A model generated the notes under the pieces. The model saw only the letters and a list, made by a program, of their open reading frames with translations, ran no database searches and was not told the DNA's origin. This document shows, piece by piece, positions 49,349-56,107 of a stretch of 64,000 nucleotides of DNA; the stretch's first letter is position 1, and each line of letters opens with the position of its first letter. The stretch is from the NCBI RefSeq assembly GCF_014705945.2, contig NZ_CP061538.1, forward strand, positions 992,001-1,056,000, in the 5' to 3' direction. This DNA is from Rothia amarae (lineage in GTDB: Bacteria > Actinomycetota > Actinomycetes > Actinomycetales > Micrococcaceae). Position numbers and translations under genes: made by a program.

Positions 49349-51985
49349 TTAGCGGGTATGCTGTAGGGCTTCTATGGGTGAAATTTTTGCGGCTTGTTGT
49401 GCGGGCGTAAGGGCTGCCAACCAGCTCAGCAAAATTGCAGTACATATCATTGCAAGAATCTCTATCCAGGGGAAAGAATACTTCACCGCTAAATCTTCAA
49501 CCGCTAAGATTTGCAATCCCATCGCACAGATAGAGACCCCCACCAGCGATCCAAGTACTGCCGCAACAAGAGAAATCATCAGGATTTCTGTTGAGATGAG
49601 TTGTTGAAGTCTTTGACTGGGCATTCCAATGGTTCGGAACAGAGCGTTATCTTGGGATCTTTGAATGGTGCTGAGAGTGGTTGAGTTTGCTACTCCTGCG
49701 CAGGAGATAAGAATGGTTGCAGCGAGCAAGATAAAGCATGCCATCAAGACTTTATTGAGGTTTTCTTCCATAGAATTCCTTTCAAGTGCACCACCGCTGA
49801 GGGCTTGAAAAGGAATCCCCAACGTCTGGGCGATGACATTCATATCTTCCTGAATCGCAGAGAAACCTGCACCGGGTGTTGTCTTGAAGAAAACCGTAGG
49901 ATAAACATTATTCTTTGAAAATAATTCTTGTGTGGGCTGACCTAGCTCCTGCTGGGTTTTCGAAGAAATGAGTGGAAATGGGATGTTTGCAGAGGTAAAC
50001 CTCACTGTGAAATTTGCATTCGATTCTGTTCCTTGCACCGAGATCTTTTCGCCATCGTGAACGTTATTTGCCTCAGCAAAATCCTTATTAATGACGATTG
50101 TATGAGTGTCTTGAAGTAACTCACTGACAACCGGTACGGTTTGTTGCAATTGAGTCCAGTCAGCCGCGTACGCCACTGGTAAGAAACCAGGTTGAGCTGG
50201 GGAATCTAATAGTAATGTACCTGCGGGGCTAACGACCTGGGCTGATTCAACCGTGGGAAGATTCTCTAACTGAATCACCTTTTGGGAAAGGTTTTGTACT
50301 TCCTTGCTGACTGAAGAGTAGGTGAGTGAGGGGGTTGTTCTATCTGGGCTCATGGTGGCTGTTAGCGAAACAGGTGACCATTCATCCAGCGCAGTGAAAA
50401 TTGTAGTTTTCATGGAGGAATACCCCATCAGCACCGCTCCTATCAGCACTGTGGATAAAAATATCATGCGCCCGGTAGCTGCAGTGCGTGTTGCCGAATG
50501 CACGGCGTTCTGAGAAGCCAAAGCACGATTTGAAAAGGGAGATGCTCCCCACCGGAAAATCTGAATAATCCAGCGAAGGATGAGGGGGAAGAGCAACACC
50601 CATCCCAGCATCAGGGAAAAACAACCTGCGAGAATCAATAGTGTTTGGTCGCTGATATTTCCACCTACAAATACCCCGGTTCCTAATATGCTGAGTAGTA
50701 ATCCCAAGAGTGCCACGCGAGGCGAGATAGCTCGTTCAGAACCGCGAGCACTCACAGAAGTAAACATCGCCAAGGGAGAGATCTTGAAGACTTTCCAGGT
50801 GGGCAGCAAATTTGCTAGAAGTGTCATCGAAACCCCTACCAAAAACCCGATGAGTCCAGCACTGGTGGAGAAATCAATGGTGAAATCTTGAAAAACCTTG
50901 CTGAGGCAAAATGCTAAAACATAGGCCAGTGAAACCCCTACTGCTGAGAACACTGCACCTAATATCAGACTTTCGAGCATAAGAAGCCAAAATACAGTGA
51001 TGCTGGATGCCCCCAACGTACGGAGTAGAGCTAGCTGAGGAACTCGTTGAGCTACCAAAGCATGAAAAGTATTGGCAATTACAAAGGCAGACATCAATAA
51101 AGCTAATCCACCAAAGACGAGCAACACATACAGTTGGACGTTGACGCCCTGGCTCTGGTTGCGTACTGCTTGTTGGATTTGAGCCTCAACTGATGAAAGT
51201 ACCGGACGTTGCTTAGACTCAATATTTGCCCATAAGGAGTTAAGTACTTCGGCAGATTTATCGTGTGGATCCTGTAGCTCAAGAAGAACCTGACGCGCTC
51301 CAGAGACATTTCTTGACCCAGCGCTATCAAGGGCCAAATCATCTAGATTCTTTTGGAGAGCTGAACCGCCTTCGAATACTGACCGAGCTGCAGAGGAATT
51401 AGGTTGCTTTACCTGAAAGATACCCACGATTGTTCGTTCGGAATCTTTCACTTCCCCTGTTTCAGAATTGAGCGCAAGGTCAGTCATTGGAAAATGATTG
51501 CCTACCATCAGCCCGTATTCTTCAGCGGTTTGGGAGGAAACCAAAACCTCATTGGAAGCAGTAGGCGCACGTCCATCAATAGACCAGGGAAATATTGAGG
51601 AATCTTCAGGAAAATTGGAACGCGTCATGATTGCAGTCTTATTTTCTACCAGTTGCAGGCTTTCTTCTCGTTTATAGAGAGGCCAACTTGATTTCACCAC
51701 TGGTGAATCAGCAATATCTCGGAGTACTTGCTCCGACAGAAAATCCTCGCCTTTATCAGTGTCCCCATAAAAACTTCCCGGCGCTTGAGCTACATAATCG
51801 GAATTTTTATAGAGAGAAGTTGCATCTTCTTCAAGAGCTGCAGTTGTAGATTGATTGACAATAAAAATCCCCGTCAGAAAAAGAACAGCCAGAGTAATGC
51901 CTAACGCGGTCAAAGATAGTTTCGAGCGCTCGCTGACGAGCTGCGATACAGCTACGGTTCTCAATGAAGTAACTTGTGATTTCAC
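49349..51985 (-). CDS. FtsX/MacB-type ABC transporter permease
   Basis: The 878-residue product has an N-terminal membrane helix, a large extracytoplasmic domain, then two FtsX-like membrane blocks (VLLVFGGLALLMSAFVIANTFHALVAQRVPQ-like first block; C-terminal LSTIQRSQDNALFRTIGMPSQRL and PTPAQQAAKISPIEALQ-like end), about ten membrane segments in all. Such two-block permeases move peptides or lipids. The start overlaps the stop of the ATPase gene by four bases. Its partner is the preceding ATPase. Confidence 0.92.
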   Translation of the reverse strand: MKSQVTSLRTVAVSQLVSERSKLSLTALGITLAVLFLTGIFIVNQSTTAALEEDATSLYKNSDYVAQAPGSFYGDTDKGEDFLSEQVLRDIADSPVVKSSWPLYKREESLQLVENKTAIMTRSNFPEDSSIFPWSIDGRAPTASNEVLVSSQTAEEYGLMVGNHFPMTDLALNSETGEVKDSERTIVGIFQVKQPNSSAARSVFEGGSALQKNLDDLALDSAGSRNVSGARQVLLELQDPHDKSAEVLNSLWANIESKQRPVLSSVEAQIQQAVRNQSQGVNVQLYVLLVFGGLALLMSAFVIANTFHALVAQRVPQLALLRTLGASSITVFWLLMLESLILGAVFSAVGVSLAYVLAFCLSKVFQDFTIDFSTSAGLIGFLVGVSMTLLANLLPTWKVFKISPLAMFTSVSARGSERAISPRVALLGLLLSILGTGVFVGGNISDQTLLILAGCFSLMLGWVLLFPLILRWIIQIFRWGASPFSNRALASQNAVHSATRTAATGRMIFLSTVLIGAVLMGYSSMKTTIFTALDEWSPVSLTATMSPDRTTPSLTYSSVSKEVQNLSQKVIQLENLPTVESAQVVSPAGTLLLDSPAQPGFLPVAYAADWTQLQQTVPVVSELLQDTHTIVINKDFAEANNVHDGEKISVQGTESNANFTVRFTSANIPFPLISSKTQQELGQPTQELFSKNNVYPTVFFKTTPGAGFSAIQEDMNVIAQTLGIPFQALSGGALERNSMEENLNKVLMACFILLAATILISCAGVANSTTLSTIQRSQDNALFRTIGMPSQRLQQLISTEILMISLVAAVLGSLVGVSICAMGLQILAVEDLAVKYSFPWIEILAMICTAILLSWLAALTPAQQAAKISPIEALQHTR

Positions 51986-52782
51986 TGTTCTTCTCCCAAC
52001 TCGGTAAGAGCGTCCAGCACGGATTCTCGGGTGGGATTATCAACCTGGTTGACCAGCGCGCCGTCCTTCATCAGCACTACACAATCTGCGTAGGAGGCAG
52101 CTTGAGGGTCATGGGTCACCATAAGAATGGTTTGCCCATATTTCTGACTAGCCTCTCGGAGAAGTTCAAGAACTTCTCGGCTTGAATGAGTATCAAGATT
52201 TCCTGTGGGTTCGTCTGCAAAGACAACGGCAGGGCGGGTAAGTAGTGCTCTGCAGATAGCAACGCGCTGCTGTTGCCCACCTGATAATTCTGCAGGTTTA
52301 TGGGCGAGTCGCTCACTGAGCCCCAGCGAACGAATGAGTTGATTCTTCCAGAGAGTGTCAACGCTTTGTCCAGATAATCCTGCTGGCAACTCGATATTCT
52401 GCTCAGCGGTCAGAGTGGGAATGAGATTGAATGCCTGAAAAATGAAGCCAATCTTTTCGCTACGAAACCGGGACAGTTCCGCATCTTTCTTACCGTACAG
52501 TTCGTTGCCATCAATCATTATTGATGTTTTGGTATCTTCATCAGCAGTATCAAGGGTGGAAAGCACATGAAGGAGGGTAGATTTACCTGAACCAGAAGCT
52601 CCCATGATGGCGGTAAATTGCCCTTGTGGGAAGGCAACATCGAGATTGTTGAGAACCCGAACGTTATTTCCGCTAGCTCCATAGGTTTTACTGAGATTCT
52701 TTGCCACCACGGAATATTCAACGGACTGAGGAATTGAACTAGGGGGACGAGAGGAGAAGTCTGAAGATGAGTGAGCTGTCAT
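51982..52782 (-). CDS. MacB/LolD-type ABC transporter ATP-binding protein
   Basis: The 266-residue product has Walker A MGASGSGKSTLLHVLSTLD, Q-loop RSEKIGFIFQAFNLIPTLTA, signature ELSGGQQQRVAICRALL and Walker B AVVFADEPTGNLDT; the GNLD ending and FNLIP are usual for MacB-family ATPases. No ribosome site; CATTAT lies seven bases before the ATG. Upstream at 52862-52877 is the dyad shared with the kinase gene. It forms one exporter with the overlapping permease gene. Confidence 0.95.
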   Translation of the reverse strand: MTAHSSSDFSSRPPSSIPQSVEYSVVAKNLSKTYGASGNNVRVLNNLDVAFPQGQFTAIMGASGSGKSTLLHVLSTLDTADEDTKTSIMIDGNELYGKKDAELSRFRSEKIGFIFQAFNLIPTLTAEQNIELPAGLSGQSVDTLWKNQLIRSLGLSERLAHKPAELSGGQQQRVAICRALLTRPAVVFADEPTGNLDTHSSREVLELLREASQKYGQTILMVTHDPQAASYADCVVLMKDGALVNQVDNPTRESVLDALTELGEEQ

Positions 52783-52861
52783 ACTTTTAATAATGAACTA
52801 GCTGGTCAGGGAACACATCGCACTCTAGTCTGAAGCTTAAGGTTTAAATATTTTTTGAAAG

Positions 52862-52877
52862 TCATTCTCTAGTATGA
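52862..52877. promoter_or_regulatory. Dyad TCATTC-TCTA-GTATGA upstream of the ABC operon
   Basis: It matches the dyad at 54958-54973 upstream of the kinase gene at 13 of 16 positions, including both outer arms. It lies 67 bases beyond the candidate -10 (52790-52795). Best explained as a binding site for the response regulator encoded next to it (inference). Confidence 0.55.
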
Positions 52878-52894
52878 TGACGGCCTCTCTCTGG

Positions 52895-53584
52895 CTAGTT
52901 TTTCATCAGCCCAGCTTCATACGCCATAACCACAGCTTGTACTCTGTCCCGAGCTCCCAGCTTGGCAAGGATATGTGAAACATGTGTTTTAACGGTTGCT
53001 TCACTCAGAAACAGAAATTCACAGAGCTCCTTATTTGTCATGCCCCGTGCCATGAGTAGCAGAAGCTCATGTTCTCGACCGGTGAGTGAAGCAATACGCT
53101 CCAAATGAGGGGTCGTGGTGCTATCTGACGGCTTGGTTATTAGGGGTACCATTTTCTCCATGAGCCGTTTGGTTGCGGATGGGGCAATGACGCCGTCGCC
53201 CCGGTGAACTGTGCGTATAGCGGTGAGTAGTTCTTCCGGTGGAGCATCCTTGAGGAGAAAACCACTTGCTCCCAGACGGATCGCCTCAAAGACATAGTCG
53301 TCTATATCAAAAGTAGTCAGCATAATAATTCTGGCGCGGGTTGAGCTCCGGAGAATATGCGCGGTAGCTTCCAGCCCATTCATCTGGGGCATTCGAACGT
53401 CCATCATTACAATGTGGGGCTCACGATTCTCCTGCTGTAATTGGAGAAACTGAGAAAGGGCATCCTCGCCGTCGGAAGCTTCAGCTACAACGTGGAAATC
53501 CGGTTGAGAATTAATGAGCATGCTAAGCCCATTTCGTACCAAGAACTGGTCATCAACGAGCATAATTTTCAAGGAATCATTCAT
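52895..53584 (-). CDS. NarL/LuxR-type response regulator
   Basis: The 229-residue product has a receiver domain with DD at 11-12, phospho-acceptor Asp62 (IVMMDVRMPQMNG) and Lys110 (FLLKDAPPEE), and a C-terminal LuxR-type helix-turn-helix (TGREHELLLLMARGMTNKEL to TVKTHVSHILAKL). It lies 39 bases after the histidine kinase gene and is its cognate partner. Confidence 0.95.
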   Translation of the reverse strand: MNDSLKIMLVDDQFLVRNGLSMLINSQPDFHVVAEASDGEDALSQFLQLQQENREPHIVMMDVRMPQMNGLEATAHILRSSTRARIIMLTTFDIDDYVFEAIRLGASGFLLKDAPPEELLTAIRTVHRGDGVIAPSATKRLMEKMVPLITKPSDSTTTPHLERIASLTGREHELLLLMARGMTNKELCEFLFLSEATVKTHVSHILAKLGARDRVQAVVMAYEAGLMKN

Positions 53585-53623
53585 GGGTGAACCTCTTTGC
53601 CTTTAATAAAATCAGTTTCTTCA

Positions 53624-54895
53624 TTACCGAATGAGAGTTGGAATAGTTGCCTCCAAGACGAATCCGCCGTCTGCGAGCTCACCGTAATGCAGGGTGCCCT
53701 GATACAAATTGATTCTCTCTCGCATGCCCAAGAGACCCCGGCGGGATCCTGGTAGCGATTCATCGGTTTGGGCTGGAGGTGAATTTTTAATACGTATTGT
53801 CAACGACTCATGGTAAGCGGAGAGCGTCACCTCAACTTTGTCTGCTGATGCCGCATGTTTTCTGATATTCGTCAATGATTCTTGAACCACTCGGTAGGCA
53901 ACCAATTCGGCTCCTGAGGGGAGAAGGTCAGCAATTTCTGATTCACTGATGGTATCGCTAAATGCCACGTTGAATCCGGCAGCTCGCATCTGTTCTATTA
54001 ATTGGGGAATATTTCTCAGGGCTGGCAATGGCTCCAATCTCGTTCCCTCAGTGGTTCTCAGAACTCCAAGAAGTTGACGCATTTGCCCCAATGATTCTCG
54101 AGCCGTGGAAGAAATCGTTTCAAGGGCGCGGATCTCTACGGATTCGGTCGGCGGATAGGATGAAATCTTCTGAGTTTCTTCTGAGTTGGAAGAAGTCGTG
54201 GATTCAGCCTGAGCTGCGTATCGTGCTCCATCTGCCTGGGTAATAATGCTCGATAACGAGTGCGCTACGATATCGTGCATTTCGCGTGCGATGCGAGCAC
54301 GTTCGTCTTGCGCTGCCAACTGTCTTTCTTGTTCTCGCTCGTACTCCAGCTGTCTGGTTCTTTCTTCTAGCTGCAGTTGCCGTATTTCGCTCAGTCGCAA
54401 AGTATTTCCTACCAGCCAGGGTATGAGTACTAATGCCAGACAAACAAAAGTTCCTACTGCGGTAAAGAGAATGTGCTCTAGCGGCGTCCATCCATAGCCG
54501 TTGACGAGTTTCAAGAGGGTTAGACCGCCCAGGAATGAAGCAAGAATTGCTCCCGCTAAAATAAGACGGCGTTGCTTGAGTCGACCATGTCTGGCGAAAT
54601 GGTAGACCATGACGGGCGCTGGCCACCAGGTCGTAAAAACGGGATAGGCGAGAAACATCGAGAATGCCATGGAAAACACCACTGCTATGAGCGCGAGTTT
54701 AGCCCTGCTGTACCGGAAATATAAGGCAGTAGTTGCAACGAAAAATAGGGCAACGCCCCACACCGTTTGGTTGGTAGAAGCGACGATGGCAAATGCCGGG
54801 GGCATGGTAAGACACTGCATGACAGCGATGAACACTGCATTCAGGGCAGTACGATGGCGGTAGAAAAAATCAGAGCGAAGGGCAGGACTCGACAC
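53624..54895 (-). CDS. HisKA_3-type sensor histidine kinase
   Basis: The 423-residue product has about five or six membrane segments in the first 165 residues and almost no external domain, so it may sense the membrane or its ABC partner. The kinase part has EERARIAREMHDIVAHSLSSI (phospho-His in the HisKA_3 box), a poorly conserved N/G region, and SLPGSRRGLLGMRERINLY near the end. GTG 54895 is six bases after TAGACT, so it is probably leaderless; the first start of the operon. Confidence 0.92.
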   Translation of the reverse strand: MSSPALRSDFFYRHRTALNAVFIAVMQCLTMPPAFAIVASTNQTVWGVALFFVATTALYFRYSRAKLALIAVVFSMAFSMFLAYPVFTTWWPAPVMVYHFARHGRLKQRRLILAGAILASFLGGLTLLKLVNGYGWTPLEHILFTAVGTFVCLALVLIPWLVGNTLRLSEIRQLQLEERTRQLEYEREQERQLAAQDERARIAREMHDIVAHSLSSIITQADGARYAAQAESTTSSNSEETQKISSYPPTESVEIRALETISSTARESLGQMRQLLGVLRTTEGTRLEPLPALRNIPQLIEQMRAAGFNVAFSDTISESEIADLLPSGAELVAYRVVQESLTNIRKHAASADKVEVTLSAYHESLTIRIKNSPPAQTDESLPGSRRGLLGMRERINLYQGTLHYGELADGGFVLEATIPTLIR

Positions 54896-54901
54896 CTCTC
54901 T

Positions 54902-54907
54902 AGTCTA
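54902..54907 (-). promoter_or_regulatory. -10 hexamer TAGACT, leaderless start for the kinase gene
   Basis: TAGACT, six bases AGAGAG, then the GTG start codon on the minus strand. Confidence 0.5.
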
Positions 54908-54956
54908 GGAAAACGCTTAAGGTGAAAAGACGGGACACTACGCCAAATACAAAAAG

Positions 54957-54982
54957 TTCATACTCGGGTATGAATATTCATA
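54957..54982. promoter_or_regulatory. Triple half-site operator TTCATA/TATGAA upstream of the kinase and leuB
   Basis: TTCATAC-TCGG-GTATGAA (54957-54974) is a perfect 7-bp dyad. Its right arm is shared with a second perfect palindrome, TATGAATATTCATA (54969-54982). The two centres are 10 bases (one turn) apart, and the block lies between divergent kinase and leuB starts. Confidence 0.6.
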
Positions 54983-55030
54983 TGGTGAGACGCCTCTGCT
55001 CGGAAGTGTCAACGCTAATCGACCGCGTAT

Positions 55031-55036
55031 TAATGT
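55031..55036 (+). promoter_or_regulatory. -10 hexamer TAATGT, leaderless start for leuB
   Basis: TAATGT, six bases GGAAAC, then the ATG. The GGAA in the gap could also act as a weak ribosome site. Confidence 0.35.
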
Positions 55037-55042
55037 GGAAAC

Positions 55043-56107
55043 ATGACTGACTCTCGAACACTCAATCTTGCGATTATTCCCGGTGATGGTATTGGTCCCG
55101 AAGTTGTGGCTGAAGCCGTCAAGGTGCTGGACGCCGTCGCCTCTCGGCAGGGATTCAGCATCCAGAAAAAACACTATGCCTTGGGGGCAGAACACTGGCT
55201 GGAAACGGGGGAGACCCTCAGCGACGAAGTGCTCAATCAACTGAAAGACCACGATGCAATCCTCTTTGGTGCGGTAGGAGCTGACCCTCGCTCATCCACC
55301 ATTCCTTCTGGTTTGATTGAGCGTGAAATTTTGCTGAAGCTTCGTTTTGCTTTCGATCACTTCATCAATCTACGCCCCTCCCGGCTTTTCCCCGGCGCTG
55401 TTTCTCCTCTAAGCAACCCCGGTGATATCGATTTCGTGGTCGTCCGTGAAGGCACTGAAGGCCCCTATGCAGGTAACGGGGGAGCGCTGCGCCAGGGCAC
55501 GGAAGCAGAAATCGCCACCGAAGTTTCGGTCAACACCGCTTATGGCGTGGAGCGTCTCATCCGCTACGCCTTCGAACTGGCGAATTCGCGGGCGCGAAAG
55601 AAGCTCACCCTGATTCATAAGACCAATGTGTTGACCAATTCAGGTCAGCTTTATACCCGCATCTTCGATCGGGTGGCCGCAGAGTATCCCGAGGTCAGCA
55701 CCGATTATTGCCATATTGATGCGGCGACCATCTACCTGACTACCGAGCCTTCCCGCTTTGACGTTATCGTGACCGATAATCTGTTTGGGGACATCCTGAC
55801 CGATCAGGCAGGTGCTGTCACCGGAGGAATAGGTCTCGCTGCCTGCGGCAATATCAATGCCAGCCGCCAATTTCCCTCCATGTTTGAGCCGGTTCACGGG
55901 TCAGCACCCGATATCGCGGGTCAAGAGAAAGCGAACCCCATTGCCTCCATCCTTGCCTCTGCCATGTTGTTGCGCCATGTTGGTGAAGAAGAGAGCGCGC
56001 AGATAATTGAAGCTGCCGTGGAAAAAGATCTGAAAGAAAACGCTACTCACGAGCGAACCACCGGCGATATCGGCTCAAGCATCGTTACATTGGTAGAGAA
56101 CGCCTAA
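55043..56107 (+). CDS. leuB: 3-Isopropylmalate dehydrogenase
   Basis: Third step of leucine synthesis, NAD and Mg dependent. The 354-residue product has [21 protein letters not shown], the substrate-site [38 protein letters not shown] with the metal-binding Asps, and [21 protein letters not shown]. It is followed by ilvE after 13 bases, so both are probably one unit. Confidence 0.97.

Follow-up and report, generated by a model that had tools for sequence, protein, structure and literature searches.

The window, a stretch of 64,000 nucleotides from Rothia amarae, encodes a histidine kinase (HK), a NarL-type response regulator (RR), and the ATPase and permease of an ABC exporter (Table 1). Profiles for HisKA_3 and HATPase_c in the kinase and for Response_reg and GerE in the regulator matched above curated cut-offs, and a match to DUF7134 in the kinase fell below its cut-off. 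The kinase has at least 4 hydrophobic segments separated by loops of 30 residues or fewer, which agrees with the initial annotation of a membrane-embedded kinase with almost no external domain. Such short loops fit a kinase that may sense its signal through the exporter or the membrane. Relatives of the regulator in the PDB include VraR, NarL, DevR, DesR, and ChrA.

The exporter had been called MacB-like, a name that holds at the superfamily level but not for the closest solved fold, which is Escherichia coli YbbAP. In MacB of the MacAB system, the ATPase is fused to a permease having one FtsX unit. Here, the ATPase is an open reading frame (ORF) of its own and FtsX occurs twice. "MacB-type" is therefore too loose a term for this permease, in which 878 residues make up a duplicated FtsX protein and the ATPase is encoded apart. 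No MacA-type (HlyD) partner was recognized among the neighboring ORFs on inspection by eye. The YbbAP type is characterized by a separate ATPase and by a permease of about 800 residues in which FtsX is duplicated and two domains are external. All of these features are found here, with a fold agreement of TM about 0.5 only. Foldseek ranked YbbAP first (E 1.4e-18), ahead of BceAB, LolCDE, and MacB, at 13 to 14% sequence identity and with a permease model of moderate confidence (pLDDT 71.6) built from 8 sequences.

Table 1. Genes and regulatory features of the kinase-regulator-exporter locus (positions in the window)
Feature	Position	Strand	Remarks
ABC permease, 878 aa	49349..51985	-	two FtsX domains, MacB_PCD, two external domains; profiles, predicted model
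ABC exporter ATPase	51982..52782	-	ABC_tran; profile match
Putative -10 CATTAT, exporter promoter	52790..52795	-	22 bp after proximal dyad; 7 nt before ATG 52782
Degenerate (proximal) dyad TCAGAC-TAGA-GTGCGA	52818..52833	-	44 bp from strong dyad; centre about -43
Strong (distal) dyad TCATTCTCTAGTATGA, exporter promoter	52862..52877		11/12 to TCATAC-N4-GTATGA; centre about -87
NarL-type response regulator	52895..53584	-	Response_reg + GerE; profile matches
Histidine kinase, GTG start	53624..54895	-	HisKA_3 + HATPase_c; membrane-embedded, short loops
Putative -10 TAGACT, HK promoter	54902..54907	-	50 bp after dyad; 6 nt before GTG 54895
Perfect dyad TCATACTCGGGTATGA	54958..54973		upstream of HK gene; centre about -70 from inferred start; perfect in 12/17 genus loci
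Palindrome TATGAATATTCATA (third half-site)	54969..54982		overlaps HK dyad; present, not conserved

One dyad had been reported upstream of the HK operon and one upstream of the exporter operon, and both were found in place, equal at 13 of 16 positions. A triple half-site had also been claimed at the HK dyad. The third half-site is indeed part of a perfect palindrome whose center lies 10 bp from that of the HK dyad, but it is absent at 11 of the 11 other perfect HK dyads, and of the genomes compared this is the only one with the triple arrangement. Leaderless starts of the HK and of the ATPase are plausible, given the putative -10 elements just upstream of each start codon. Neither promoter has a recognizable -35 element, and a promoter and terminator scan of positions 52700 to 55060 returned no match at the dyads, including no sigma-70-like site. 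An RNA hairpin was set aside as an explanation because transcription is predicted to start downstream of the HK dyad. We note that the two promoters (52823 to 52843 and 54898 to 54923) also have CTCTAGTCT and GCTTAAGGT in common, 3 and 8 bp apart.

Within the genome, the dyad is rare when read strictly. In 2.48 Mb, TCATACNNNNGTATGA is matched perfectly once and with a single mismatch once, exactly at the HK and exporter dyads, such that a genome search up to one mismatch returned just the two sites first noted. Likewise, TCATWCNNNNGWATGA occurs at 2 places in the whole genome, precisely the two dyads, and its reversed control at 1. With up to 2 mismatches TCATACNNNNGTATGA sinks to background (32 places versus 40 for the control), and the pattern of the initial annotation with up to 3 mismatches was not enriched within the window (7 found versus 6.96 expected) and was not used as evidence. 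Thus, the exactness of the dyad matters, as patterns that tolerate 2 or 3 mismatches behave like background.

What decides that the dyads are real is conservation in relatives rather than frequency in the window. Over 35 genomes of the genus, TCATWCNNNNGWATGA was found at 61 places, compared to 7 for the reversed control, and it was present in 30 of the 35. Of 396 genomes from the order, 40 contain the exact palindrome and 3 the reversed control. Among the matches listed, a homolog of HK, RR, or ATPase lies within 1.5 kb at 19 of 30 order loci, as opposed to 1 of 24 control pieces, and the other 11 of these 30 listed loci have no such homolog linked; some lie beside a gene that by eye looks TetR-like (L102). 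Comparison of the two intergenic regions across species, which had been proposed as a check, found both dyads conserved, with drift confined to the center and the outer 12 bases retained.

The dyad also keeps its position relative to the genes. A regulator query was run against 39 genomes, and the stretches around the matches were compared. The order HK-RR-ATPase-permease is found in 9 of 13 genus loci compared, and L043 has the same order with interrupted frames. In the genus, the dyad precedes HK and is found again in the RR-ATPase gap, and its center changes. Although the neighboring gene differs, being leuB in this window and thrC in most of its relatives, the dyad stays with HK. The genus loci are related, and the counts therefore overstate independence. 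We conclude from these comparisons that the dyad accompanies the HK-RR-exporter locus in one genus and in several other families. A convergent ATPase-permease operon in genome G022 (L052) had no match in the sequence that reaches 166 bp upstream of its ATPase match, nor any TCATWCNNNNGWATGA match at that locus. As for L043, its HK and ATPase matches are split between stretches of an incomplete genome, with either interrupted genes or poor assembly.

An unbiased scan of the gaps between regulator and ATPase genes led to the same palindrome. Every six-base half-site with a spacer of 0 to 10 was counted, and TCATAC with a spacer of 4 ranked first, in 20 of 37 gaps, 11 of the 37 having been found via the dyad itself and the other 26 having been chosen by regulator homology. 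The next classes were shifted registers of the same palindrome, and in no gap of the 37 did any of the 89 other orderings of the TCATAC letters attain 11/12. When only the 26 homology-chosen gaps are considered, 10 have the exact dyad, this window has 11/12, L150 has 10/12, and 14 have less. Exact dyads were found in gaps from Demequina (L149) and Brachybacterium (L160), and at L044 a 10/12 copy overlaps the RR stop codon and hence falls outside the gap. The 80 named regulator loci contributed the 13 that have an ATPase within 700 bp.

At perfect dyads, the spacing of the HK promoter is nearly invariant. Of the 12 perfect HK dyads in the genus, 8 are near-identical sequences, and the independent ones are those of the window, L033, L044, and L103. 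All 12 are followed by TAGACT or TAAACT, at 50 bp in 10 and at 51 bp in 2, with GTG 6 to 7 nt later. An 11/12 dyad in L042 precedes TACAGT by 50 bp, that of L040 (also 11/12) stands at 93 bp and off the spacing rule, and a 9/12 dyad in L041 lies 23 bp before TACACT. When the genus HK promoters were inspected by eye, no clear proximal second element emerged.

The exporter promoter is built differently. Its strong dyad was confirmed, but a second, degenerate dyad at 52818 to 52833 had been missed, although that element was among the matches of the original pattern with up to 3 mismatches. Side-by-side reading of the gaps first pointed to a degenerate copy downstream of the strong dyad. With the strong dyad as the sole query, 20 of 24 loci (one tie) had their best second match at 23, 24, 33, 34, or 44 bp; this match reached p<0.05 singly in 4 of the 24, and the combined p was 2e-5 for loci that are not independent. 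Gibbs sampling of 19 sequences with the strong dyad masked, under a model that imposes one site per sequence, gave log-likelihood ratios (LLR) of 240 to 287 in 12 runs, compared to 177 to 188 in 6 shuffled sets. These 19 remained after dereplication of 30 loci, each having a dyad of 10/12 or better; L126, L129, and L150 were left out, and no second element was seen by eye in L126 and L129.

The distances from strong to second dyad (n=19) were 23, 23, 23, 24, 24, 32, 33, 33, 33, 33, 34, 34, 34, 34, 44, 44, 45, 54, and 54 bp, and they are coherent at 10.5 bp with an R of 0.93, which was unmatched in 100000 random sets for 17 lineages. Moreover, the second dyad ends 22 to 23 bp before NANNNT in 18 of 19 loci and TANNNT is found in 9 of 19; in these tails, the two hexamers have frequencies per position of 0.054 and 0.011, respectively. 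The exception is L035, with just 10 bp between the second dyad and CATACT. By sequence, the promoter thus has two helically phased sites, of which the proximal keeps a fixed place before the -10, and class II activators likewise have a center near -43. When the element is read in the 6-4-6 frame, C6 is retained in 19 of 19, G11 in 18, and G15-A16 in 19, and the left half is looser, with pairs 3/14 complementary in 4 of 19. Three of four divergent HK-RR/ABC loci (L117, L125, and L142) have a perfect dyad that ends 22 bp before the HK -10, and the fourth, L119, differs with 39 bp. Because of the kept bases and of the perfect dyad at the same place in L117, L125, and L142, the same regulator probably also binds the degenerate dyad. 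The exporter leaders contain a conserved GATGTG as well, which was considered as a leaderless mini-ORF; that reading was dropped, since GACGCG takes its place in other families and a separate -10 serves the ATPase ATG.

Dyads of this kind precede other exporters in the genus. We classified 27 genus stretches around dyads by the downstream operon, running profiles on one member per exporter type (L085, L107, and L091) and assigning the others by sequence likeness. Four stretches contain the operon described here (L100 and L103 to L105), five an HlyD/ABC/MacB-like operon (L082 to L085 and L101), seven an ABC plus ABC-2 operon (L086 to L088, L092 to L094, and L107), and three an ABC plus FtsX operon (L089 to L091); none of these operons was assigned downstream of the dyad in 8. 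At 16 exporter sites, TANNNT follows the dyad by 49 to 50 bp in 12, by 52 bp in three of the L089 type, and by 45 bp in one, a spacing that resembles the 50 to 51 bp of the HK promoters. We note that L101 has two perfect dyads ahead of its exporter operon, at 681 and 890 and 209 bp apart, with TANNNT at 45 and 50 bp. A third dyad site of this kind is absent from the R. amarae genome.

How might the locus work? The regulator very probably controls both operons, because the same site is found at both and is kept in related bacteria, and it very likely turns on its own operon and the exporter through the common dyad. That control had been proposed from the outset, and the association of dyad and locus, the spacing to the -10, and the persistence of the dyad with HK all speak for it. 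The membrane-embedded kinase would phosphorylate the regulator, a dimer of which would bind TCATAC-N4-GTATGA. At the HK promoter, a single dimer at about -70 would activate the operon and thus its own synthesis. At the exporter promoter, a dimer occupying the strong distal dyad would help a second dimer onto the weak dyad, which would adjoin RNA polymerase, with both dyads on the same face of the helix. The sequences themselves show the sites, their conservation, the distance to the -10, the phasing on the helix, and the gene order; from these we infer binding by this particular regulator, cooperation between the dimers, activation, and dependence on phosphorylation. Taken together, the locus is likely a self-contained signaling and export module in which the predicted regulator dimers activate the HK operon and the exporter.

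The same regulator might instead use the same sites to repress one or both promoters at rest, with the signal relieving repression. The sign of regulation is not readable from sequence alone, and a dimer at -43 might equally block RNA polymerase. Neither promoter has a recognizable -35, however, the dyads leave the -10 uncovered, and distal and proximal sites in helical phase, as found here, are the usual picture of cooperating activators. The ChrSA-HrtBA system, moreover, is positively autoregulated according to the available text of one report (PMC6850329). Resting repression therefore seems improbable to us. We give somewhat more weight to the possibility, still an unlikely one, that the element at -43 is a sigma factor -35 box or the site of another protein. 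Its right part, YGAYG, resembles TTGAC, its distance to the -10 is fixed, and the symmetry of its left half is partial. From YYGAYG to the -10, however, there are 20 to 21 bp, above the usual 16 to 18, and both the bases kept in the 6-4-6 frame and the perfect dyad in the same place at three of four divergent loci favor a second site of the regulator.

Alternatively, the dyads could belong to another regulator, such as a TetR-type or a different NarL-type protein. The regulator query has 13 matches in this genome, and L117-type loci have the same dyad with regulators merely 37 to 40% identical. Moreover, the G/C-centered palindrome TCATACG-NN-CGTATGA, a possible confounder, has the same half-sites and occurs at about 6265 in L102, adjoining a TetR-like gene by eye, and at about 6111 in L097. 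Nevertheless, the dyad is confined to the HK-RR-exporter locus in this genome and recurs between RR and ATPase in relatives, and ownership by another regulator strikes us as quite improbable. Finally, the likeness of the dyads might be due to chance or to a functionless duplicated stretch, as the pattern that tolerates mismatches is no commoner in the window than chance predicts and CTCTAGTCT and GCTTAAGGT are likewise common to both promoters. Retention of the outer 12 bases across species despite drifting centers makes either explanation extremely improbable.

Activation by the NarL-type regulator has precedent. The heme-responsive ChrSA-HrtBA system of Corynebacterium, which pairs HK and RR with a heme exporter, likewise has a HisKA_3-type kinase and a NarL/LuxR-type regulator; its kinase has several membrane helices and no extensive loops, as here, and ChrA and HrtBA are among the sequence and fold matches of the proteins of this locus. 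HrtB, however, is a single FtsX unit, whereas the permease here is a duplicated FtsX protein. Moreover, one central ChrA site serves divergent promoters there, and two promoters with separate sites are found here. In the available text of two reports, the regulator activates the ABC exporter next to it as well as its own operon (PMC5812335, PMC6850329). The likeness is one of architecture and regulatory logic, with the letters of the ChrA/HrrA operator outside the comparison, and a palindromic motif is given for HrrA in the available text of PMC7337898. LnrJK-LnrLMN of Bacillus subtilis (formerly yfiJKLMN) is also an HK-RR-ABC gene group with a promoter between the RR and transporter genes, and LnrLMN is the only target of LnrK in the available text of PMC7472640. 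It differs in belonging to another phylum and in having a three-gene transporter. The reading is plausible and its kind known because ChrSA-HrtBA and LnrJK-LnrLMN follow the same logic, and the present system appears to be a further, well-supported case of that kind.

The exporter promoter resembles that of another actinobacterial regulator. DevR of Mycobacterium tuberculosis differs from this system in consensus and stimulus. It is, however, a NarL-type regulator for which strong and weak sites act jointly at one promoter, and the available text of that report contains no distal site moved by whole turns between promoters (PMC7018068). In titles and abstract openings among the literature matches listed, no description of the present operator was recognized. 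Regarding function, the pump presumably exports a toxic or membrane-active compound, and the signal would come from the membrane or the exporter. By analogy, heme and membrane-active compounds are first candidates for signal or substrate.

The operator may extend beyond this locus. We speculate, at a little less than an even chance, that NarL-type regulators of this lineage use one grammar for pump promoters across the order: the weak dyad keeps its place at about -43, and the near-perfect dyad shifts between promoters by whole helical turns (2, 3, 4, or 5), with two dimers cooperating over a variable span of DNA and with duplicated FtsX, HlyD plus MacB-like, and ABC-2 type exporters under the same operator in different species. 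The kinase-regulator-exporter module occurs in several families and now has a precise candidate operator, the spacing rule of which lets its targets be recognized in other genomes. The promoters also form a natural series in which the same two sites are separated by 2 to 5 helical turns and in which the reach of dimer cooperation would be measurable. Two observations concern the fate of the dyad itself. In L099, a perfect HK-type dyad lies beside thrC at about 6032, in 12 kb without an HK, RR, or ATPase match, and looks like an operator that remained after loss of the operon. In L035, L037, and L038 (and in part in L039), an inverted repeat AGGTTCCGCAGRCTCAC ... GTGAGTCTGCRGAACCT of variable length, which by eye resembles a small mobile element, sits between the RR stop codon and the dyad, just upstream of a dyad that is intact.
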